Positions 6,152 through 40,857 of a stretch of DNA of 42,366 nucleotides are shown in pieces. Numbering within the stretch: position 1 is the first letter of the stretch; each line of letters starts with the position of its first letter. Both the position numbers and the translations under genes were made by a program. A model generated the notes under the pieces. That model saw only the letters and a list, made by a program, of their open reading frames with translations, did not search any database and had not been told where the DNA came from. The stretch lies in IMG/VR virus record IMGVR_UViG_3300003886_000013, positions 1 through 42,366 of that record, one strand, 5' to 3'. Source of the DNA: a virus.

Positions 6152-6592
6152 ATGACGAAATATAATGTACAGAAGAATGTAAATATTAAGAATCAAGGAA
6201 GTGGTAATGGTAGGTGGACAGGTGGAGAAAATTCATATTATACAAACCATTACCAACTAAAACTAAATCGTAAAGAAAGACTTAAACAATGTGGTAATAA
6301 GTGTGAAAAATGTGGTGACGGAACTGCCAACCTTAAAGCAACAAAACTAGATGGTGATAAAGAGAACCACGAAATTAGTAACTTAAAAATGTTGTGTAGT
6401 AAATGTGTTGGTAGTAAACAAAACTCAAAATTTAAAAAGAAATATGGAAATACACTAGATGAATTATGTCGTGAATTTGGTGTATCTTTATCTACTTTAT
6501 ATAAATTTATACCTGATAATGATAGTAAGGTAAAACTTAAAACCAGTATAATTGCATACAATAATATGAAAATTGTAAGGCATTCTATATGA
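6152..6592 (+). CDS. Degenerate HNH-type Zn protein with C-terminal HTH
   Basis: This 146-aa protein has CEKCG and a downstream CSKCVG framing KLDGDKENHEISNLKML. That is the frame of a Zn-stabilised HNH nuclease, but the usual HH pair is replaced by Thr-Lys and the last His by Val-Gly. The Asn-Leu anchor (SNLKML) is kept. A following LDELCREFGVSLSTLYKFI looks like a helix-turn-helix. The most economical reading is a former homing or HNH endonuclease retained as a DNA-binding protein. An active variant with different ligands cannot be excluded. SD gggga precedes ATG 6152. Confidence 0.6.
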   Translation: MTKYNVQKNVNIKNQGSGNGRWTGGENSYYTNHYQLKLNRKERLKQCGNKCEKCGDGTANLKATKLDGDKENHEISNLKMLCSKCVGSKQNSKFKKKYGNTLDELCREFGVSLSTLYKFIPDNDSKVKLKTSIIAYNNMKIVRHSI

Positions 6593-7640: not shown

Positions 7641-7823
7641 ATGAAATTTTTAAAAATTGAACGTAATACAAAAATTATGATTGAGCCACTAGAAGAAGCT
7701 GGTTTGTTCAAGCATTGTACTGGTGGGTTTACTTGTGTTGATTTTAAAGAATTTTCTAATGAGACAATACCAATTTTACAAGCTCATGGTATAGATTTGA
7801 TAACTTATATGGAGAAAAAATAA
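7641..7823 (+). CDS. Small hypothetical protein upstream of the NAD+ pair
   Basis: This 60-aa soluble protein has clear SD aggaga before ATG 7641. Its TAA overlaps the ATG of the Prs-like gene (TAATG at 7821-7825), so the two are probably translationally coupled. One CxxxxxxxC pair (KHCTGGFTC) is present. The function is unknown. Tight coupling suggests a role linked to NAD+ metabolism or simply shared expression. Confidence 0.55.
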   Translation: MKFLKIERNTKIMIEPLEEAGLFKHCTGGFTCVDFKEFSNETIPILQAHGIDLITYMEKK

Positions 7824-8668
7824 TGGAATATACGTTAAATTTACATGATGGTTTTGGTCAGTGTGGTGATTCACTTCAATATGAAACTTCCATCTTTCCA
7901 GGTGGTGAGATATGGATTAAAGTAAATGTTCCTATGTGTGTAGATTCTGTTCGTATTAATAGTAGATGTAACAACTCAAATGACCTAATGAGAATTATAA
8001 TGGCTGTTGATGCACTACGCAATAGGTCTGTTACTAAGATAGAGTTATTTATACCTTACTTTCCATACTCAAGGCAAGACAGAGTATGTGCTCCTGGTGA
8101 AGCATTCTCTGTGAAAACAATATGTGGTATGCTAAAGCAGTTAAATTTGTATAACATAATAACATATGATATACACAGTAATGTACCTGGTATATTGTTA
8201 GATAATCTTATAAATTACAATAACCATAGAGAAGTAATAGATTTTGTAGACTATCTCAAAATACCAGAAAATAACTTTGTACTTATATGCCCAGATGCAG
8301 GTGCTATAAAGAAATCTCAGAGTTTACTTACTGTATATTCTAATACATTTAAAAGTATTGTGTATTGTCAGAAGGAACGAGTAAATAGTAATGTCGTGAT
8401 TAGTATGGGTAATAATTACATAGAAGGAATGACAGCGTTTGTAGTAGATGATATTTGTGATGGTGGTGCAACATTCGAAGCTATTGGTCGTGAATTACAA
8501 CAGGCCAAAGTAAAGGAATCATACTTGTTCGTATCTCATGGTATATTTTCAAAGAGTACTTATGAATTAGTAAAATACTATAAGAAGATAGGAACAAGTA
8601 ATAGTATACATGAAGATGATTTTATTGAAGAATTACCAGGAGTTAAATCTTTTAAACTTGATTATTAG
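7823..8668 (+). CDS. Ribose-phosphate pyrophosphokinase-like protein; candidate ADPR-PP synthetase (Adps)
   Basis: This 281-aa Prs-family protein has the ATP and Mg site region PYSRQDRVCAPGEAFSVKT, the DIHS motif (canonical DLH) and the PRPP loop VVDDICDGGATF. The family transfers pyrophosphate from ATP to ribose-5-phosphate. In the NARP1 anti-defence pathway, described by others, a Prs-like enzyme (Adps) instead pyrophosphorylates ADP-ribose so that a NAMPT-like partner (Namat) can rebuild NAD+. The NAMPT-like partner is adjacent and no NMN adenylyltransferase is visible, which favours NARP1. Ordinary PRPP synthesis feeding NMN production remains possible. Confidence 0.82.
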   Translation: MEYTLNLHDGFGQCGDSLQYETSIFPGGEIWIKVNVPMCVDSVRINSRCNNSNDLMRIIMAVDALRNRSVTKIELFIPYFPYSRQDRVCAPGEAFSVKTICGMLKQLNLYNIITYDIHSNVPGILLDNLINYNNHREVIDFVDYLKIPENNFVLICPDAGAIKKSQSLLTVYSNTFKSIVYCQKERVNSNVVISMGNNYIEGMTAFVVDDICDGGATFEAIGRELQQAKVKESYLFVSHGIFSKSTYELVKYYKKIGTSNSIHEDDFIEELPGVKSFKLDY

Positions 8669-8682
8669 AAATGGGGGTAGTA

Positions 8683-11079
8683 ATGAATTTAAGCCCAGCA
8701 CATATGATAGATTTTTATAAGTCTGGTCATATTTACCAGTACCCAGAAAAAACGGAATTGATATTTAGTAACTTAACAGCTAGATCAGCCAGAGATAATA
8801 AGGTAGATTCTATAGTATTCTTTGGTTTACAGTACACTATTAAGAAGTATTTTATGTATGAGTGGAGTGTTAATTTCTTTGACATACCAATAGAAGATAT
8901 AGTACATTCTTATTTGCGTAGAATGAATAATGCACTTGGTAAAGATTCAGTAGGTGTAGAACATATTGAATCATTACATAAGTTAGGATATTTACCAATT
9001 GAAATTCGTGCTGTAAAAGAAGGTGCTCATGTAGATATTCGTGTACCGTGTATGACTATCTATAATACGTTGCCTGAATTCTTCTGGTTGACTAACTATC
9101 TTGAGACTATATTGAGTTGTTCTATATGGCCCATGATTACGTCAGCTACAATGGCATTTAAGTTCAAAAAGTTGCTTGCTTTTTATGCTGGTAAAACAGG
9201 TGGTGATAAAGAATTTGTAAAGTTTCAAGGCCACGACTTTTCTTTCAGAGGAATGTTTGGGTTAGAAGCTGCTATGATGTCTGGAGCAGCTCATCTTACT
9301 TCTTTCGTTGGCACAGATACAGTACCAGCCATAGATTTCTTAGAGGAATACTATGGTGCTGATTGTGAGAAAGAGTTGGTGGGTTGTTCAGTACCAGCTA
9401 CAGAGCATAGTGTAATGAGTTTGGGCGGAGATGATGATGAGATTGGTACTATCAGAAAACTTATTCTTACTACATATCCTAGTGGTATAGTAAGTATTGT
9501 TTCTGATACATGGGATTTTTGGAAAGTAATAACTGAGTATTTACCAACTCTTAAAGATGAGATAATGGCTCGTGATGGTAAGGTTGTTATAAGACCAGAC
9601 TGTTATGATGAAAAGACCATGCTTAGAACAGAAAATGGTTGGGAGTATTTTTCAGAATTAAATGAAAATATTAAAGTAGCACAAGTATTAGATGATGGTT
9701 CTTATGAATTTATTAAACCAATAAAAATAATTAAACAAGAGTATAGAGGTTTAATGCACCATTTTAAAGATCAAAAAGGTAAGGTTGATCTTTTAGTTAC
9801 ACCTAACCATAGGATGGTTGTCAATGTAAATAATAAAGAATGTATTGTTAAAGCACAAAATTTAACAACACAGGGATATTATTATCAAACTATGAAAAGG
9901 AGTGCTTCAGCACAAAGCTTACCAGATGTAAGAATCAGTAGTATTGATAGATTAAAAATAGCCTTTCAAGCTGACGGTTCATTTACAACATCTGGAGATA
10001 AGATTAGATTTAGTTTTTCTAAACAAAGAAAAATAGATAGATTAAAAGAAATTCTATTTGATTGTAGAATAGATTATAAAATTTACCCTTTAAAAGATGG
10101 AAGAGTAGAATTCAACATTAATATATCAGCAGACAATTTTCAAAAAGATTTTTCATGGGTAGAAACAAAATATACTACAAAAGAATGGGCACAAGATTTT
10201 ATAGAAGAATTATCTTATTGGGATTCTACTAGACGATCAGAGTATAGATTTAAATTTGATACAACAAACAAAGAAGTAATTGAAAAAGTTGAATTAGTTA
10301 GTTTAGCTGCTGGATATGGTGTTTTAATTTCTAAGTGGGAGGATAGTAGAAAAGAAATTTTTTCAGATTTATATACTGCACATATAATGAAAGATAATTT
10401 TATAGGTGGACAATCATGGACTAATACAACTCAAGAGTTTGATGGGACAGTTTATTGTGTAACAGTTCCTTCTGGTAAATTATTAGTTAAGAGAAATAGA
10501 AGTACAATGGTTTGTGGCAACTCTGGTGACCCTGGTGATATTATTTGTGGCAATCGTAACCTTAAGAGCACAGTGAAAATGTGTACAGCTGAAGCCAAAG
10601 GTTCAATAGAATGTTTGTGGGATATTTTTGGTGGTACAGTAAACGATAAAGGTTATAAGGAACTAGACTCACATATTGGACTTATCTATGGTGACAGTAT
10701 TACTCTTGATAGATGTAGAGATATTTGTAATCGTTTGGAAGTTAAAGGTTTTGCATCTACTAACGTTGTGTTTGGTATTGGTTCTTTTACTTACCAATTT
10801 ACAACACGAGATGTGTACGGATTTGCAATTAAAGCTACATATGCAGAAGTTGATGGTAAAGCTATGAATATCTTTAAGAAGCCAAAAACTGATGATGGAA
10901 CTAAGAACAGTGCCAAAGGATTAACTGCTGTATACCAAGACCCAAATCTAGGATATTACCATATGAAAGATGAAGCTTCTTGGGATGAATTTAATAACTG
11001 CGATCTTGAGTTAGTATTTAAAGATGGTAAGTTAATTCGTGATACTACGTTAGCTGAAATTAGGGGAAGATTAAAATAA
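8683..11079 (+). CDS. NAMPT-like (Namat candidate) phosphoribosyltransferase interrupted by an intein
   Basis: The 798-aa precursor starts best at ATG 8683, because the ggggg SD (8673-8677) overlaps the ATG at 8671. Removing the intein leaves about 491 aa, the size of human NAMPT. Extein landmarks are FVGTDTVPAIDF, VPATEHSVM (catalytic His region), and the split loop RPD/SGDPGD, whose reconstituted form matches the family RPDSGDP or RPDSGNP. The enzyme joins nicotinamide to an activated ribosyl donor. Next to the Prs-like gene it probably performs the second NARP1 step, giving NAD+ directly. Splicing is required for activity because the intein sits in the substrate loop. Confidence 0.88.
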   Translation: MNLSPAHMIDFYKSGHIYQYPEKTELIFSNLTARSARDNKVDSIVFFGLQYTIKKYFMYEWSVNFFDIPIEDIVHSYLRRMNNALGKDSVGVEHIESLHKLGYLPIEIRAVKEGAHVDIRVPCMTIYNTLPEFFWLTNYLETILSCSIWPMITSATMAFKFKKLLAFYAGKTGGDKEFVKFQGHDFSFRGMFGLEAAMMSGAAHLTSFVGTDTVPAIDFLEEYYGADCEKELVGCSVPATEHSVMSLGGDDDEIGTIRKLILTTYPSGIVSIVSDTWDFWKVITEYLPTLKDEIMARDGKVVIRPDCYDEKTMLRTENGWEYFSELNENIKVAQVLDDGSYEFIKPIKIIKQEYRGLMHHFKDQKGKVDLLVTPNHRMVVNVNNKECIVKAQNLTTQGYYYQTMKRSASAQSLPDVRISSIDRLKIAFQADGSFTTSGDKIRFSFSKQRKIDRLKEILFDCRIDYKIYPLKDGRVEFNINISADNFQKDFSWVETKYTTKEWAQDFIEELSYWDSTRRSEYRFKFDTTNKEVIEKVELVSLAAGYGVLISKWEDSRKEIFSDLYTAHIMKDNFIGGQSWTNTTQEFDGTVYCVTVPSGKLLVKRNRSTMVCGNSGDPGDIICGNRNLKSTVKMCTAEAKGSIECLWDIFGGTVNDKGYKELDSHIGLIYGDSITLDRCRDICNRLEVKGFASTNVVFGIGSFTYQFTTRDVYGFAIKATYAEVDGKAMNIFKKPKTDDGTKNSAKGLTAVYQDPNLGYYHMKDEASWDEFNNCDLELVFKDGKLIRDTTLAEIRGRLK
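9601..10521 (+). mobile_element. Intein with LAGLIDADG-type endonuclease region inside the NAMPT-like gene
   Basis: The intein is 307 aa, beginning at Cys (TGT 9601) after RPD and ending at Asn (AAC 10519) before Ser (TCT 10522). Block A is CYDEKTMLRTENGWEYF. Block B is VTPNHRMVV (TxxH present). The degenerate LAGLIDADG motifs are LKIAFQADGSF and ELSYWDST, each with its acid. Blocks F/G are VYCVTVPSGKLLVKRN and MVCGN followed by Ser. The penultimate His is replaced by Gly, a known but less common variant. Length and motifs indicate a full intein with a homing-endonuclease domain, possibly still active. Base composition matches the surrounding gene. Confidence 0.9.
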
Positions 11080-11235: not shown

Positions 11236-12093
11236 ATGGGATATAGACACATACCTAATTTGTACAAAGGTCAAGAAATCTTAATGTTTAAGGAGTGCTA
11301 TGTATCTGAGAAGATACATGGTACTTCTGCCCATATTAGGTGGGATGTAGATAATTCAAAAAATGTTAAGTTTTTTAGTGGTGGTTCATGCAATCAAACA
11401 TTTGTTAATTTGTTTAACCAAAAAGCATTAACAGAGATGGCACATTCTATTGATGTTCCTAAGTGGATTATTTACGGTGAAGCATACGGTGGTAAGTGCC
11501 AGAATATGAAAAACACGTATGGTGATAAGTTAAAGTTTGTAGCGTTTGATATTAAGGTTGGTAATTTGTGGTTGGATTTACATAAAGCTAGTAAGTTTGC
11601 TGATATGTTTAATTTAGATTTTGTGTGGTATATTAAATGTTCGACTAGTATTGCTACGCTAGACTACTACAGAGACTACCCATCACAACAGGCTATCAGA
11701 AATGGTATGGGTGATGGTAAGAAATCAGAAGGTATTGTTATAAGACCATTGATAGAGCTAACAAAAAATAATGGTAACCGTATAGCGGCTAAACACAAAA
11801 CAGAAGAGTTTTGCGAAACTAGAACACCGCGAGTTATAACAAAAGAAGATCTGAAAGTTTTAGAGCAGGTAAGAGAAATTATATCAGAGTGGGTAACTGA
11901 AAATAGATTAACTAATATTCTAAGTCATATAGGTAAAGATTTAGAAATTACTGATATTTCATCTATTATTAATCTTATGGTTGATGATGTATTACGTGAA
12001 GGTGAGGGAGAGTTGGTTAGTTCAAAAGCATTACTTAAAGCTATCGCAAGAGAGACAGCATTAATGGTTAAAAGAAGATTACAAATAAGTTAA
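11236..12093 (+). CDS. RNA ligase, T4 Rnl2-like
   Basis: This 285-aa protein has nucleotidyltransferase motif I SEKIHGTSAHI (Lys26 is the adenylation site), motif III WIIYGEAYGG, motif IIIa KFVAFDIKVG, motif IV SEGIVIRP and motif V IAAKHKTEEF. The EKIHGT form is that of the Rnl2 family, which seals 3'-OH/5'-P nicks in RNA duplexes. In phages such ligases can repair tRNAs cut by host anticodon nucleases. Its position beside a NAD+-restoring pair and near a tRNA gene suits an RNA-repair counter-defence role, which is inference. SD gggggta precedes ATG 11236. Confidence 0.85.
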   Translation: MGYRHIPNLYKGQEILMFKECYVSEKIHGTSAHIRWDVDNSKNVKFFSGGSCNQTFVNLFNQKALTEMAHSIDVPKWIIYGEAYGGKCQNMKNTYGDKLKFVAFDIKVGNLWLDLHKASKFADMFNLDFVWYIKCSTSIATLDYYRDYPSQQAIRNGMGDGKKSEGIVIRPLIELTKNNGNRIAAKHKTEEFCETRTPRVITKEDLKVLEQVREIISEWVTENRLTNILSHIGKDLEITDISSIINLMVDDVLREGEGELVSSKALLKAIARETALMVKRRLQIS

Positions 12094-12500: not shown

Positions 12501-13796
12501 ATGGAAAATGATTTTGATAATTTACAGTTATATATAGACGAGATGAAAGCCACATCATCGTCAAATAAGAAAAAGGAAATATTAGAGAAATGGCAAAATA
12601 ATGAGTTTATACTTAAGATACTTCTTTATGTAAATAATCCTTATTGGACTTATGGTGTAACAAGTAAAGCTATTAAGAAATTTGATAGAATAGGTATATT
12701 ACCTGCTATTAATAGTAATGATATAATTCTTCTTTTAGATAATTTACGTAATAAAATATTTACAGGTCACAATGCTTTGAAAGAAGTTAACTTATTTATA
12801 TTAGAAAATCAACAACATGAACAACTTATATACAATATAGTAGATAAGGACATTGAAACCAGAGCCAATGCAATTTTAATTAACAAAGTAATTCCTAATC
12901 ATATTCCAGAGTTCAAAGTTGCGTTAGCCAATAAGTACGAAGAAAAACTTGTTGACTTTGATAAAGAAGAATGGTATGCTAGTAGAAAGCTAGATGGTGT
13001 AAGATGTGTTTGTATAATTGATAAGTATGGTAATAGTAAGTTTTATTCTAGAACTGGTAAGGAATTTACCACTTTGGGTGTATTACAAAACCAAATTAAA
13101 AAACATGTAAAGTGTCGTAATATTGTATTAGATGGTGAATTGTGTTTAGTAGATAAAGATGGTAATGAGGACTTTCAATCTGTAATGAAGCAGATACGTA
13201 AGAAAGATCATACCATTCCTAATCCTAAGTATCACGTATTTGATTGCTTAACACACTTAGAATTTGATATTAAAATGACAAATAGAAAGTTTAGTAATCG
13301 TCAAGAATATTTAGATTGGGTAAATTATTTAAAATGCTTTGAATTACTTACACAATTACCAATGAATACAATTAGTGATCTTGATGCAATGAAAGTAAAA
13401 GCACAGAAACTTGGTTGGGAAGGTGTGATGTTGCGTAAAGACGTTGGTTATAAAGGTAAGCGGTCTAATGATCTATTGAAAGTTAAAACATTTATGGACG
13501 CTGAGTATAAGGTTATTCGTACTATAAATGACCAGATGCGTTTCTTTGAGGATGGTAAAGATGTATCTAGAGAAACAATGGCCGCAGTTATAATTTACCA
13601 TAAAGGCTATGAAGTTAAAGTGGGATCTGGTTTCAGTAAAGAAGAACGTGAGCTATACTATAATGACCCAGAGAAGATTGTTGGTAAGTTAATAACAGTA
13701 CAATATTTTGAGGAAACTACTAACCAGGATAATGACGCAATCTCTTTAAGGTTTCCAACTTTTAAATGTTTACATGGCATAGAAAGGGTGGTATAG
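12501..13796 (+). CDS. ATP-dependent DNA ligase
   Basis: This 431-aa protein has an N-terminal helical region (1-150) and a nucleotidyltransferase core. Motif I is SRKLDGVRC (Lys163 adenylated), motif III is VLDGELCLVD, motif IV is WEGVMLRKD, and motif V is LLKVKTF, followed by an OB-fold region. It seals nicks in duplex DNA, joining Okazaki fragments and repair products. The length fits small viral ATP ligases. SD aaggag precedes ATG 12501. It is distinct from the Rnl2-like ligase encoded 400 bp upstream, so the phage has both RNA and DNA sealing. Confidence 0.9.
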   Translation: MENDFDNLQLYIDEMKATSSSNKKKEILEKWQNNEFILKILLYVNNPYWTYGVTSKAIKKFDRIGILPAINSNDIILLLDNLRNKIFTGHNALKEVNLFILENQQHEQLIYNIVDKDIETRANAILINKVIPNHIPEFKVALANKYEEKLVDFDKEEWYASRKLDGVRCVCIIDKYGNSKFYSRTGKEFTTLGVLQNQIKKHVKCRNIVLDGELCLVDKDGNEDFQSVMKQIRKKDHTIPNPKYHVFDCLTHLEFDIKMTNRKFSNRQEYLDWVNYLKCFELLTQLPMNTISDLDAMKVKAQKLGWEGVMLRKDVGYKGKRSNDLLKVKTFMDAEYKVIRTINDQMRFFEDGKDVSRETMAAVIIYHKGYEVKVGSGFSKEERELYYNDPEKIVGKLITVQYFEETTNQDNDAISLRFPTFKCLHGIERVV

Positions 13797-14231: not shown

Positions 14232-14302
14232 AGGGGTATAGTGTAGTGGTAACACGAGAGACTTTGATTCTCTAATTCATGGTTCGATTCCATGTATCCC
14301 TT
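14232..14302 (+). tRNA. tRNA-Gln (anticodon TTG)
   Basis: A complete cloverleaf can be drawn. The acceptor is AGGGGTA/TATCCCT (7 bp, one G-U), the D stem GTGT/ACAC, and the anticodon stem AGAGA/TCTCT with loop CTTTGAT (anticodon TTG, reads CAA). The T arm is CATGG/CCATG with loop TTCGATT. CCA is not encoded. CAA is heavily used in this AT-rich phage, which explains selection for it. An alternative or additional role is replacing host tRNA destroyed by defence nucleases. Confidence 0.92.
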
Positions 14303-16584: not shown

Positions 16585-16745
16585 AAAGTGCTACAACAAT
16601 ATGTCTTAAACTTGATAATTGGGATAATCTTTGTGTGCATTGTGGTGAGTACAATAAGAAACAACCATGTAAAGAAAATATACCAGATTATATACCTGAT
16701 GAACAAATAAGAAGATTTTTAATTGCGAGGAGAGATAATGTTTGA
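16581..16745 (+). CDS. YIP-x-EQ family microprotein upstream of DNA polymerase (copy 8)
   Basis: This 54-aa protein has CVHCGEY with neighbouring Cys (TICLK, QPCKE), then IPDYIPDEQIRRFLIARRD. ATG 16581 follows gagaggg. The codons GCG AGG AGA of its tail are the SD of the polymerase gene, whose ATG (16738) lies 8 bp before this stop. Translation of polymerase is therefore likely coupled to this microprotein. Confidence 0.65.
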   Translation: MKSATTICLKLDNWDNLCVHCGEYNKKQPCKENIPDYIPDEQIRRFLIARRDNV

Positions 16746-19122
16746 CTGTGATTTATGTGAATTAGGAGCAGTAGTAAGAGCAAATCGTAGTAGTACACAC
16801 TGTATAATGGGTAGTGGTAATAAGAAAGCTAAAGTAATGTTTATTGCTGAAGCACCATCGATTCAGGATACTGCTATTGGTAGTACATTTACTGGTGAGT
16901 ATGGATTATTACTATCTGAATTAATAGAGAAAGCTGGGTATGATGAATCAGATGTGTATAAAACCACTCTTGTTAAATGTACTCCTAAAGGTGGAAAAAC
17001 TAATGTTGGTAATGTAAAAGAGTGTAATGGTTATTTAGAAGAAGAAATACTTAAGATAAGACCAGATGTTATAGTACCATTAGGTGCAGTAGTAACTAAA
17101 CATTTCTTAGGTAATAAAAAGATTTCTGATGTACGTGGTTATGTATTTGATAAGAAACCAGTTACAATAGGAAAGGTAGTATATGCCCCAAAGATAATTC
17201 CAACGTATAGTATTCATGCAATACTTGGCAGACCTACTAACCTATATGAGTTGCAGGCTGACGTTAGAAAAGCATTTGAAGTGGCAGACAAGGGTTATAA
17301 TCCTATAAAACGCACATATCTATTTACAGATAAATATGCTGAAGTGTACGACATATTAAAACAAGTAGATGCTTTTGCTTTTGATGTAGAAACCACAGGA
17401 TTAAACCATTATAAAGATGATATAATTACATGTGCATTTTCATTTAAAGCAGGTATGTCTATATGCTTACCATTTAATAATGATTGGTTTAAGAAGATAC
17501 TTGCATTACCATGTAAAAAGATAGCACATACCAAATTTGATAGTAAGATATTAAAGTGTAGATATAATATACCAACGAATAATTTCTATTTTGATACGTT
17601 TGCTGCCATACAACTTTTGAATGATAATGTGGGGAAGGGTCTGAAAAATCTCATCTCGTTGTACACAGATATACCATACTATAATCTTAAGAGTAAATTA
17701 AACTTGAAAGAAGTTTATGATAAGGAGCCAGAAAAAGTAGCAGAGTATAATAATTTTGATACTGATGGTACGTTTAGATTGTTTGAGATATTCGAGAGAG
17801 ATTTGGTTGTACAAAATATGGATGATTTATTCTATGAGACCACTATGCCAACAAATCTAATGTTAATGGAAATAGAGGAAGAGGGTATTACTATAGACGT
17901 TAGGCAAGTAAAGGAACTGTCATTAGATAATAACCTACAAGCAATAGATATTAAGCGTGAGTTAAATTCTATCGCACCAATTAAATGGACTTCTCCTAAA
18001 CAGGTTGGCGATGTGCTATTTAATAGGTTAGGACTAATACCACCAATTAAAACCCCAACTGGTGGTAACAGTACTAATGAGAAAGTGCTTAATATATTAA
18101 AGAACAAACACAAAGCCCCAATGTTACTATTAAAACTTAGACAATTAAACAAAGGATTATCTACGTATCTTGGAGGGGTGGTTGATGGTAATGATATAAA
18201 ACCACCAAAGCATATTGACAAAGATAAACAAGAAGAGTATAAATTAACAACTGCTGAAACTAGTTTATTACAGTATAAGAACGATATAGATTCCTACCCG
18301 ATAGGTGATTCAGACTTATTTAAATTGTTACAAGATGATGGTAAAATACACAATGACAATAATATCAATGGTACTGTAAGTGGTAGGCTCACATCACCAC
18401 TACATACCATACCGAGAGAAGGTGGTTTTCGTGATATATTCATATCCCCACCAGGATTTTTGTTTGTTGGTATGGACTATAAGCAATTTGAACTTCGTAT
18501 CGCTGCATGGCTAGCAAATGAAACTCAATTATTGGTTATACTTGATGCACCAGGATGTAAGGAAATACTGACTAAGCTGATCACTGGTAAGGAATATTCA
18601 GAAGAGGGGTGGGTAAAGACCAAAAGTATTATCTATGGTACTCTATATGGAATGGGACCAAAGCGATCAGCAGTAGAACTTGGTATAGAAGAATGGGAAG
18701 CTGTGGAATTAAGAGACACATTCTTCAAAAACTTTAAGAAGGTAAAAAGATTGCTTGGTTTATTTAAAAAGGATTCATTAAACAGAGGTTACATAGATGA
18801 TATGGTAGGTAGACGTAGAAGATTCCTTACTAAGAATTATAAGGTATTTGATATGGATGGTGATATAGTACGAGCAGCAGTTAATTTTCCTATTCAAGCA
18901 GGATCAGCAGCAATATTTTGGCCTAAAGTATTAGAAGTGTATAAGTATTTGAGGAAATATAGATCAAAAGTAATACACACCAAACATGATGCTATATATT
19001 TTAAGGTGGCAGAGGATGAAAAATCACTGATTGATAAGCTGAAGAATATACTAGAGAAAGATACGTTAATTGGTGACGTATTAATGGATGTAAAGATAGG
19101 GAGACATTGGGGTGAATGCTAA
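16738..19122 (+). CDS. Family-4 UDG-like / family A DNA polymerase fusion
   Basis: A 794-aa protein from ATG 16738, chosen for its gaggaga SD over TTG 16723. Residues about 1-170 form an Fe-S uracil-DNA glycosylase-like domain with CDLC, IAEAPS (canonical GEAPG), LVKCTPKGG and a fourth Cys (KECNGYL). A 3'-5' exonuclease follows with FDVETTGL, IAHTKFD and YNNFD. The polymerase has motif A GMDYKQFELR, motif B KSIIYGTLYGMG, and motif C HTKHDAIYF, where Ala replaces the usual Glu of HDE. This is the phage replicase. SPO1-type polymerases also carry a UDG-like N-terminus. The UDG part may tether Fe-S or read uracil rather than excise it. Confidence 0.9.
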   Translation: MFDCDLCELGAVVRANRSSTHCIMGSGNKKAKVMFIAEAPSIQDTAIGSTFTGEYGLLLSELIEKAGYDESDVYKTTLVKCTPKGGKTNVGNVKECNGYLEEEILKIRPDVIVPLGAVVTKHFLGNKKISDVRGYVFDKKPVTIGKVVYAPKIIPTYSIHAILGRPTNLYELQADVRKAFEVADKGYNPIKRTYLFTDKYAEVYDILKQVDAFAFDVETTGLNHYKDDIITCAFSFKAGMSICLPFNNDWFKKILALPCKKIAHTKFDSKILKCRYNIPTNNFYFDTFAAIQLLNDNVGKGLKNLISLYTDIPYYNLKSKLNLKEVYDKEPEKVAEYNNFDTDGTFRLFEIFERDLVVQNMDDLFYETTMPTNLMLMEIEEEGITIDVRQVKELSLDNNLQAIDIKRELNSIAPIKWTSPKQVGDVLFNRLGLIPPIKTPTGGNSTNEKVLNILKNKHKAPMLLLKLRQLNKGLSTYLGGVVDGNDIKPPKHIDKDKQEEYKLTTAETSLLQYKNDIDSYPIGDSDLFKLLQDDGKIHNDNNINGTVSGRLTSPLHTIPREGGFRDIFISPPGFLFVGMDYKQFELRIAAWLANETQLLVILDAPGCKEILTKLITGKEYSEEGWVKTKSIIYGTLYGMGPKRSAVELGIEEWEAVELRDTFFKNFKKVKRLLGLFKKDSLNRGYIDDMVGRRRRFLTKNYKVFDMDGDIVRAAVNFPIQAGSAAIFWPKVLEVYKYLRKYRSKVIHTKHDAIYFKVAEDEKSLIDKLKNILEKDTLIGDVLMDVKIGRHWGEC

Positions 19123-38505: not shown

Positions 38506-40857
38506 TTGAGTAAGTATTCTGTAATAATACCAACATCAAACAATTTTAATTATTTAAGAGAGTGTGTAAGTTATGTTAAAGCCAATTCTAATAAAGAAGA
38601 TGTAGAAGTAATTGTGGTTAGTAATGGATGTACAGATGAAACAATAAATTTTATAGAAGATCTAGACCATGAAGACAAAGTTTCTGTAATTAAGAATGAA
38701 ACAAATGAGGGTTTTGGTAAAGCTGTAAACAAAGGTATTAAAGCTGCTACTGGTGAGTGGATAGTCATATTGAATGATGATATAGTTGTACCAAAGGGTT
38801 TCCTAAAGAAGTTTGAGACGGATTGTAAAGAATATAAAAGGATCTCTGGTACAAAGAACGCTTCTATTGCAGTTCCTATGTCAAATTATGTTGGTATGAG
38901 AGCACAACAGCAACCATGCTCTAGTAGACAACAGTTTGAAGCTACAGCAAAAGATGTATATACTAAAAACTACAGAAAGATTCAAACTATAGGAGTTGTA
39001 TCTGGTTTGATGATGTTTGTACATAAGGAAGTATTTGACACTATAGGACTATTTGATGAACGTTTCTTTGCTGGCTGTGAGGATGTAGACATAGCAGTAA
39101 GAGCGTATGAAGCTGGTTTTATTAGTATTGTATGTAAAGATATATTTGTTTGGCACTACGGTTCAAAAACTATAGATAGAATGCCAGAACTTAAACGTGG
39201 TACTTCACACATTAAAGATTTGATAGAGAAGTATGCAGAAAGAGCTAAAGAGAAACAAACTCTTGGTGTTATATATCGTGTCAAGATACGTGACGATTAT
39301 GATTTAAATGTATTCAAAAGATCATTGGCAAAATCAGCTACGTTTGCAGATCATATTTTTATATTAGATGATAATTCACCAATATCATATAAAGCTGAGG
39401 TAATAAAAACAAAAGTATCTTGTGATGTTACATTTAAATCATACGAAAGATTTTTTGATGAACGTAGAGATAGGAATGAATTACTACATATGGCTAAAGA
39501 AGCTAAAATGGATTGGGTATTTAGCCTTGATGCAGATGAGATTGTAGAGGATAAGGTAGATAGAAAACTAATAGATAGGCTTATTGGTACACCAGATCCT
39601 ATGACTCAAGGTTACCAAGTACATTATTACACGTTTTGGAATGATGAAGAACATTATAATGCTGGTGATGTATGGAAAACAATGTGTGGTACAAGATTAG
39701 TACGATTAACTGCTGACCCTGTAATTTATATGGGAGCTAAGAGTACATTCCACGTAGGTAATATACCAAATGTTCCGGGTGATATGCAAAGACTATCAAA
39801 TATTAGGATTAAACATTATGGTTACGTACATCCCACTCAAAGACAAAGGAAATATGAATGGTATGAAAAGATGGATACCGATAAGAATCCTGCATTGATT
39901 GGTCATAAAGATTATAAGCATTTGATTAATGAGAATCCTCTAGTACTTAGAAAATGGATAGAAGATAGTTCTATATCATTATGTACTATTATGAAAAATG
40001 AGCAATCAGGTTTATTTGATTTCTTAAGATCATACATGCCATTCCTAGATGAGGCTATAATTGTAGATACTGGTTCAACAGATGATAGTATCTACTTAGC
40101 TAAACTATTTGGTGTGAAAGTAATTATAGGAAGTGATGATTTGTATATTGATTGTGATGGTGATAAAATACTAAACTATGGAAAATCCAGAAACGTGGCT
40201 CTTGAAAATGTAACGTCCACATGGGTATTACATATGGATATTGATGAACACATAGACCATCTTAACACAGTAAGAAGAATGATTGATGCTGATATGGACG
40301 GTTATATGTTCTACGTAAATAATCTTATGCCAGATAATAGGTATTCATTGTCTGAAACTGTAAGAATATTTAAGAAATCATGTGGGTTTACATATTCTGG
40401 TTTAGTACATGAGACTATTAATCAGAATAATCACCAATTTAAAATTGGTAAAGCGCCAATGAGACTTAGCCATTTTGGATACTTAAAACCACAAGATCAT
40501 ATTAGAAAGAAGATGCAGAATTACTTTAAGTTGAATAAGAAACAAATAGAGTTACACCCTAAAGATCCAAGACCATTTTATGCTGTAGCAATACATTATC
40601 TTGAAGAGGGGTTTGTGGATGAAGCTGAAGAAAATCTATTACAGGCTTATGAATTGGATCATAATTTTTATCAAGCACAAAAAGATTTGGGTTATTTGTA
40701 CTTAAACAAAGCCAGAATCTACTTTAATCAGGTAGCTAATCTATTACAGGATGGTCACCCATTTAAAAACATGTGTGCTGAGAATACAAAGGTTATAGAT
40801 GATATAGTAGGACATCAAAGCCAAGTATCTGCAGGACATCTTGAAGGTCTGGTATAA
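38506..40857 (+). CDS. Multi-domain glycosyltransferase: three GT2-like domains plus TPR
   Basis: A 783-aa protein from TTG 38506 (SD gaggtg). Domain 1 (1-240): VIIPTSNNFNYLREC, VVSNGCTDET, ILNDDIVVP, GCEDVDIAVRA, a standard GT2 fold with DxD and acidic acceptor site. Domain 2 (250-470): IFILDDNSP, WVFSLDADEIV. Domain 3 (485-700): SLCTIMKNEQS, IIVDTGSTDDS, HMDIDEHI. The last 80 residues carry TPR-like helices (AEENLLQAYELD). It probably adds a short glycan to virion proteins or modifies the cell surface. Each domain keeps its acidic motifs, so three sugar transfers are possible. Confidence 0.85.
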   Translation: MSKYSVIIPTSNNFNYLRECVSYVKANSNKEDVEVIVVSNGCTDETINFIEDLDHEDKVSVIKNETNEGFGKAVNKGIKAATGEWIVILNDDIVVPKGFLKKFETDCKEYKRISGTKNASIAVPMSNYVGMRAQQQPCSSRQQFEATAKDVYTKNYRKIQTIGVVSGLMMFVHKEVFDTIGLFDERFFAGCEDVDIAVRAYEAGFISIVCKDIFVWHYGSKTIDRMPELKRGTSHIKDLIEKYAERAKEKQTLGVIYRVKIRDDYDLNVFKRSLAKSATFADHIFILDDNSPISYKAEVIKTKVSCDVTFKSYERFFDERRDRNELLHMAKEAKMDWVFSLDADEIVEDKVDRKLIDRLIGTPDPMTQGYQVHYYTFWNDEEHYNAGDVWKTMCGTRLVRLTADPVIYMGAKSTFHVGNIPNVPGDMQRLSNIRIKHYGYVHPTQRQRKYEWYEKMDTDKNPALIGHKDYKHLINENPLVLRKWIEDSSISLCTIMKNEQSGLFDFLRSYMPFLDEAIIVDTGSTDDSIYLAKLFGVKVIIGSDDLYIDCDGDKILNYGKSRNVALENVTSTWVLHMDIDEHIDHLNTVRRMIDADMDGYMFYVNNLMPDNRYSLSETVRIFKKSCGFTYSGLVHETINQNNHQFKIGKAPMRLSHFGYLKPQDHIRKKMQNYFKLNKKQIELHPKDPRPFYAVAIHYLEEGFVDEAEENLLQAYELDHNFYQAQKDLGYLYLNKARIYFNQVANLLQDGHPFKNMCAENTKVIDDIVGHQSQVSAGHLEGLV

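Follow-up and report, generated by a model that had tools for sequence, protein, structure and literature searches.

A class 1 intein with a LAGLIDADG endonuclease at the active-site motif of a phage Namat-like gene: a probable selfish mobile element

Introduction

Phage inteins usually lie beside catalytic residues (PMC5050341), and the same holds outside phages, as for the intein between the di-iron ligands of the Aquifex ribonucleotide reductase (PMC8772380). The intein described here interrupts a Nampt/Namat-like gene in a 42,366-nucleotide stretch of viral DNA (IMG/VR record IMGVR_UViG_3300003886_000013, positions 1 to 42,366; hereafter referred to as the window), at the codon boundary RPD↓SGDP (hereafter referred to as site A; the arrow indicates the splice point). 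The most similar known system is that of Staphylococcus phage Stab20 and other Kayviruses, in which a 307-amino acid intein, 57% identical to that of the window and with the same MVCGN↓S ending, occupies the same site in a gene that, like that of the window, adjoins a ribose-phosphate pyrophosphokinase gene. The exteins of the Kayviruses are about 55% identical to those of the window, and an intein-free allele is known among near-identical Kayviruses. The intein-bearing genes of these phages are annotated merely as nicotinamide phosphoribosyltransferase. Citrobacter phage Tr1 also has an intein at this site (52% identity), but it infects a Gram-negative host and its extein is far from that of the window. 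The Nampt inteins of phages phiSNIID, O1-102, B2-102, T2-102 and Stab23 (39.5% identity, Gly-Asn ending) lie in the same gene, but at a different site, PA↓TEHS. The NrdA-type inteins of T5-like phages (SHSML-45) and Silviaviruses (Romulus) belong to the same compact family (34-35% identity over the full length, CGN↓S ending), but their host gene encodes a ribonucleotide reductase. The RDF intein of mycobacteriophage Bethlehem, likened here to that of the window on the basis of its published description (PMC5050341), is a class 1 intein with a penultimate Gly that splices, in a different host protein. The solved structure closest to the exteins is that of SPbetaL1 Namat (PDB 9w5w, 9w5x), in which the NAD+-contacting residues are conserved and there is no intein. 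A search of open-licence papers yielded no account of an intein in the NAMPT/NadV enzymes or in the restoration of NAD+ by phages.

Results

The precursor gene and its splice junctions

The ORF at 8671-11079 (plus strand) reads as a single open frame of 802 codons, encoding an 802-amino acid precursor. Residues 311-617 of this precursor constitute the intein (921 bases, 307 amino acids). The exteins on either side of it (1-310 and 618-802) together make up a Nampt-like enzyme, which would comprise 495 amino acids once spliced (Table 1). The junctions read AGA CCA GAC ↓ TGT TAT GAT ... TGT GGC AAC ↓ TCT GGT GAC CCT: Cys1 (TGT) starts at 9601, after the GAC of RPD, Asn307 (AAC) ends at 10521, and Ser+1 (TCT), at 10522, opens SGDP. 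The motif is uninterrupted in intein-free homologues, as RPD-SGDP in phage K and SPbetaL1 and as RPD-SGNP in Manatee Spring phage. A previous reading of the window, made from its letters only (hereafter referred to as the sequence-only reading), had placed an intein between RPD and SGDP in a NAMPT-like gene. Its boundaries were exact to the base, the splitting of the motif is borne out by both the DNA and the intein-free homologues, and the profile matches of the exteins confirm the nature of the host gene, with the insertion in an active-site motif.

Table 1. Coordinates of the intein, its exteins and the adjoining gene in the window.
Feature	Position	Strand	Basis
PRPP-synthetase-like enzyme, candidate Adps (ADP-ribose pyrophosphate synthetase), first of a NARP1-like pair	7823..8668	+	Profiles
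N-extein, 310 aa, ends VVIRPD	8671..9600	+	NF006629 (547.8 bits), PF18127, PF04095
Intein, class 1 Hint domain containing a two-motif LAGLIDADG endonuclease	9601..10521	+	Residues, AlphaFold, Foldseek
Splicing block B, TPNH, T67 to H70	9799..9810	+	39-row alignment: T67 38/39, H70 39/39
First LAGLIDADG motif, RLKIAFQADGSFT, catalytic acid D125	9949..9987	+	39-row alignment and PF14528 match
Second LAGLIDADG motif, FIEELSYWDS, catalytic acid D208	10198..10227	+	39-row alignment: D208 39/39
Splicing blocks F and G, VYCVTVPSGKLLVKRNRSTMVCGN, C286 at the block-F Cys/Asp position	10450..10521	+	39-row alignment
C-extein, 185 aa and stop, starts SGDP	10522..11079	+	PF04095, aromatic clamp residues, precursor model

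Fold and conserved residues of the intein

The relatives identified by BLAST aligned with the intein over all 307 residues, with the same splice points (E = 8e-114). A comparison of folds was required because a phmmer search with the intein against PDB sequences gave chance-level matches only. The AlphaFold model of the intein had a mean pLDDT of 95.5 and its top matches in the PDB, as identified with Foldseek, were the TliVMA, PI-SceI, PhoVMA and PI-PfuI inteins; the class 3 AceL NrdHF intein, I-DmoI and a hedgehog autoprocessing domain came next. As the model matches solved inteins, the element is a Hint domain bearing a two-motif LAGLIDADG endonuclease. The full-length same-site relatives and this confidently modeled fold place its identification as an intein beyond chance. 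The Pfam scores are nevertheless below the gathering cut-offs (20.9 bits versus 35.8 for Intein_splicing and 20.4 versus 22.5 for LAGLIDADG_3), and automatic annotation would therefore miss it.

Conservation was assessed on an alignment of 39 rows, containing the window intein and 38 relatives from viral contigs. Cys1, His70, Asp208, Gly306 and Asn307 were invariant, and Thr67 (38/39), Asp125 (38/39, the remaining row having a Glu) and Cys286 (37/39) were strongly conserved. The characteristics of a class 1 intein found here are a Cys at position 1, the block-B Thr-x-x-His, Asn307 followed by Ser+1, the Hint/intein fold and an in-frame insertion relative to homologues in which the site is empty (phage K, SPbetaL1 and Manatee Spring phage); the penultimate His, which is common in this class but not strictly defining, is replaced by Gly306. 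The LAGLIDADG-type motifs reported in the sequence-only reading are present: the core of the first reads LKIAFQADGS, with QADG at D125, and the second has YWD at D208. Both catalytic positions are acidic in all 39 rows, and the fold matches those of I-DmoI and PI-SceI.

The intein ends in CGN, as the sequence-only reading had indicated, but this ending is not, as that reading had suggested, unusual. The penultimate Gly is present throughout the alignment (39/39), and the Gly-Asn ending is retained whether the host gene encodes a Namat, a ribonucleotide reductase or another protein. Many inteins have a His in block F; a scan of blocks F and G of the window intein detected no His from C286 to G306, a stretch that includes a conserved basic pair at residues 297-298 (mostly Arg-Arg or Lys-Arg). 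The penultimate residue varies among phage class 1 inteins, and a mycobacteriophage class 1 intein with a penultimate Gly splices efficiently, its G316H mutant being much slower (PMC5050341). Given that the Gly is family-wide and that a published intein with this residue splices, the CGN ending is no sign of a defect or of a switch.

Distribution and phylogeny of the same-site inteins

The sequence-only reading had called for a search for the intein in other NAMPT-like genes, and such inteins were indeed found. Site A is occupied in five Staphylococcus phage records (Stab20, V1SA09, T-SE-G1, T-SE-G2 and Clo6), in Citrobacter phage Tr1 and, in scans of viral contigs with an intein alignment and an extein alignment, in at least 11 IMG/VR lineages (L010, L012, L014, L017, L019, L020, L022, L023, L024, L027 and L028). 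The host exteins include both Namat-like proteins and ordinary Nampt-like proteins, the latter lacking the aromatic clamp. Occupancy is low: 5 of the 199 phage records with the staphylococcal gene carry the intein at site A, and the extein-based scans of viral contigs, limited to the best-scoring loci, gave 0/80 and 2/82 occupied ORFs. A viral-contig scan with the whole 802-amino acid ORF as a single protein returned no matches. The inteins detected in the scan of GTDB genomes were all distant and lay in genes other than Nampt, so no bacterial source was identified. Neither the window's own phage nor its intein had a close relative in the collections searched.

In the intein tree, 13 of the site-A inteins formed one clade with moderate support (82% of bootstrap trees, branch support 84/62), with the intein of the window beside those of Stab20 and Tr1. 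In the tree of the exteins, which was built quickly and contains some long branches, the site-A label was scattered, requiring most simply nine changes, at least six of which were forced by starred branches, and the extein of the window was sister to that of the intein-free lineage L090. Because the same-site inteins form one clade while their exteins are scattered, the two phylogenies point to horizontal transfer of one intein family to a fixed site in scattered hosts. The GC content at third positions was 13% for the intein, versus 26% and 21% for the exteins.

Related inteins (33-39% identical) were found in the same gene at a second site, PA↓(T/S)EHS, which adjoins the catalytic His. This site, with the sequence PA↓TEHS, was read in the staphylococcal phage phiSNIID, and O1-102, B2-102, T2-102 and Stab23 match the same intein; second-site inteins were also present in IMG/VR lineages L015, L016, L028, L030, L031, L034 and L037. 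The L028 contig has one Nampt-like frame of 1096 amino acids with two inteins of the same family, one of 319 amino acids at PA↓SEHS and one of 314 amino acids at RPD↓SGDP. L037:1-8963 also contains two inteins of this family, one in a Nampt-like gene (WA↓TEHS) and the other in a gene with a ribonucleotide reductase-like junction (AQN↓SQRRGF). Finally, inteins sister to the site-A clade interrupt a helicase-like Walker A P-loop at ARPD↓CGKTAF (L029:3596-4531 and L032:4001-4939). As RPD precedes the splice point in both the helicase-like and the Namat genes, the element may, judging from these two loci, have jumped between unrelated genes sharing the RPD target.

Recent movement in Kayvirus relatives

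In BT3, CUB-A and phiIPLA-RODI, the site is empty, yet the sequences of Adps and the N-extein in these phages are 99.0-99.5% identical to those of Stab20. The inteins of Stab20 and Clo6 differ at 15 of 921 bases, versus 107 of 1470 for the exteins (Fisher P = 9e-11); the corresponding values for third positions are 12/307 for the intein versus 46/309 and 33/181 for the exteins. The junction reads GAC↓TCA in the carriers Stab20 and Clo6, and GAT↓AGC or GAT↓AGT in the empty BT3, phiIPLA-RODI and K. No single base change links the TCA and AGY serine codons, and the sequence difference reads as a short co-conversion tract of the kind left by homing. Recent intein transfer is thus placed in the Kayvirus relatives, with their 57% identical intein, and not in the window's own phage. 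Estimates of dN/dS were uninformative, due to saturation in distant pairs and too few changes in close ones. The identical inteins in L024/L026 and L020/L021 were considered as a possible proof of homing, but were set aside because the genomes are mosaic.

The host enzyme and its NAD+ pathway neighbor

The product of the gene preceding the precursor gene matched TIGR01251 (132 bits, cut-off 113), Pfam Pribosyltran_N/Pribosyltran and PHROG 619, and had only 26% identity to the protein encoded at the corresponding position in SPbetaL1 and 29% identity to its Manatee Spring phage counterpart. The gene order, PRPP-synthetase-like followed by Namat-like, resembles the Adps-Namat layout of NARP1. 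The Namat core residues Asp13', Tyr15', Phe189, Arg192, Asp215, Arg306 and Asp308 (SPbetaL1 numbering) are all identical in the extein of the window, with R308 and D310 aligning with R306 and D308, and the catalytic-His motif PATEHS is intact (residues 242-247 of the N-extein). No substitution was seen at any of the NMN-contacting positions of SPbetaL1 Namat that were compared. At the adenine clamp, with its aromatic positions 392 and 396 and its stacking position 40, the window has Phe, Phe and Arg, and SPbetaL1 has Phe, Tyr and Arg. The precursor model was nearest to Namat 9w5x/9w5w (TM-score of 0.93-0.95 on the Namat chain), followed by bacterial NadV and human NAMPT, and its confidence dropped at the insertion, to below 50 for residues 310-313. 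Namat (nicotinamide ADP-ribose transferase) is a better guess than Nampt for the spliced 495-amino acid enzyme; sequence does not settle the substrate, because transplantation of the clamp into human NAMPT failed to convert that enzyme (PMC12774641).

The residues touching the substrate in the Namat-NAD+ structure include Arg306 and Asp308, and the R306A mutation decreases NAD+ production about 11-fold (PMC12774641). An insertion of 307 residues at this point would be expected to disrupt the loop. As the Arg and Asp of RPD correspond to these contacts and lie directly before the splice point, separated by the insert from SGDP, the 802-amino acid precursor is very probably inactive until spliced, in agreement with the sequence-only reading, according to which activity depends on splicing.

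Discussion

The rarity of the element, the existence of near-twin phages in which the site is empty, the intact endonuclease and the horizontal spread lead us to consider this class 1 intein, with its intact LAGLIDADG homing endonuclease, to be a selfish mobile element in a phage Namat-like gene, with a probability of about 0.86. We infer splicing, DNA cleavage and the inactivity of the precursor rather than having observed them, and envisage the following course of events. The 802-amino acid precursor would be made with the substrate-contacting Arg308 and Asp310 cut off from the SGDP loop. Cys1 would attack the Asp310-Cys1 bond, Ser+1 would then receive the N-extein, and Asn307 would cyclise without a penultimate His, freeing the 495-amino acid enzyme with a seamless RPDSGDP loop. 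In co-infecting phages, the released intein would cleave the intein-free gene where it encodes RPD-SGDP, and repair would copy the intein in. It would persist because the site encodes catalytic residues, making imprecise loss or mutation of the target costly. Such a parasite must splice well to be tolerated, and splicing is probably constitutive, without regulation.

The sequence-only reading had raised the possibility of a regulatory role, with NAD+ restoration made conditional by redox, temperature or metal sensitivity through Cys1. This nucleophile is common to every Cys1 intein, and its presence is therefore not evidence for redox or metal control. Insertion between catalytic residues does imply that splicing would gate activity, disulfides between C1, C286 and C305 are conceivable, mycobacterial DnaBi1 provides a precedent for oxidation-gated splicing (PMC6195587), and disulfide-bonded precursor conformers were observed in a study of a phage intein with a penultimate Gly and of its G-to-H mutant (PMC5050341). 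However, the rare and patchy distribution of the intein, together with the empty phages 99% identical to carriers, argues against selection for its retention, and the endonuclease acids, intact in all relatives, fit mobility. Residue 305 is a Cys in just 18 of the 39 aligned sequences; C286 is present in 37, but ordinary inteins commonly have a Cys at this position of block F (PMC4031507). Moreover, most of the native RDF intein, which has a penultimate Gly, was already spliced at time zero (PMC5050341). We found no support for redox, temperature or metal control, and consider it highly improbable that oxidation, metal or temperature slows splicing so as to render Namat activity conditional, and give equally little credence to the recruitment of a selfish element into the anti-defence pathway, with a splicing switch timing NAD+ restoration through, for example, oxidation via C1, C286 or C305.

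The lack of a penultimate His and of any His between C286 and G306 could also be taken to indicate that the intein no longer splices and that the phage carries a dead Namat gene. Such a conclusion is barely credible, given that every core splicing residue is present, that both exteins keep their NAD+-contacting residues and an intact frame, that all 39 relatives, NrdA inteins included, end in Gly-Asn, and that splicing in a reporter is known for a phage intein with a penultimate Gly (PMC5050341). It is very unlikely that the intein of the window's phage splices but has a dead endonuclease, and is vertically inherited and trapped in place: with no close relative of this copy in the collections, recent movement cannot be traced for it, but its two catalytic acids and LAGLIDADG fold are intact, its low third-position GC content fits a separate origin from that of the exteins, and it groups with the inteins of Stab20 and Tr1 while its extein groups with the intein-free L090.

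An anti-defence NAD+-restoring enzyme thus joins the conserved phage proteins that host such a parasite in their active site, and the Nampt/Namat-like gene is interrupted at two sites, each of them at catalytic residues. Intein-bearing and intein-free Kayviruses constitute a natural pair for considering its cost and benefit in an anti-defence gene. The whole family lacks the penultimate His, and block F of the window intein is devoid of His; such inteins provide natural cases for studies of Asn cyclisation without this residue. There is also a warning for annotation: public records count such genes as plain nicotinamide phosphoribosyltransferases, when the encoded product is a precursor, and the Pfam cut-offs miss this intein.

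Other features of the window

Directly after the NAD+ gene pair lie genes for a T4 Rnl2-type RNA ligase (11236-12093) and an ATP-dependent DNA ligase (12501-13796). The small ORF at 6152-6592 has a CxxC and a His-containing stretch resembling, by eye, an HNH nuclease, with no Pfam match; it is possibly a free-standing homing endonuclease. A single ORF (16723-19122) combines a uracil-DNA glycosylase domain (residues 30-173) with a 3'-5' exonuclease and a family A DNA polymerase, and the two ends of a 783-amino acid ORF (38506-40857) each match a glycosyltransferase (PHROG 841 and PHROG 13126). The window also contains a single tRNA-Gln (TTG) gene, at 14232-14302.
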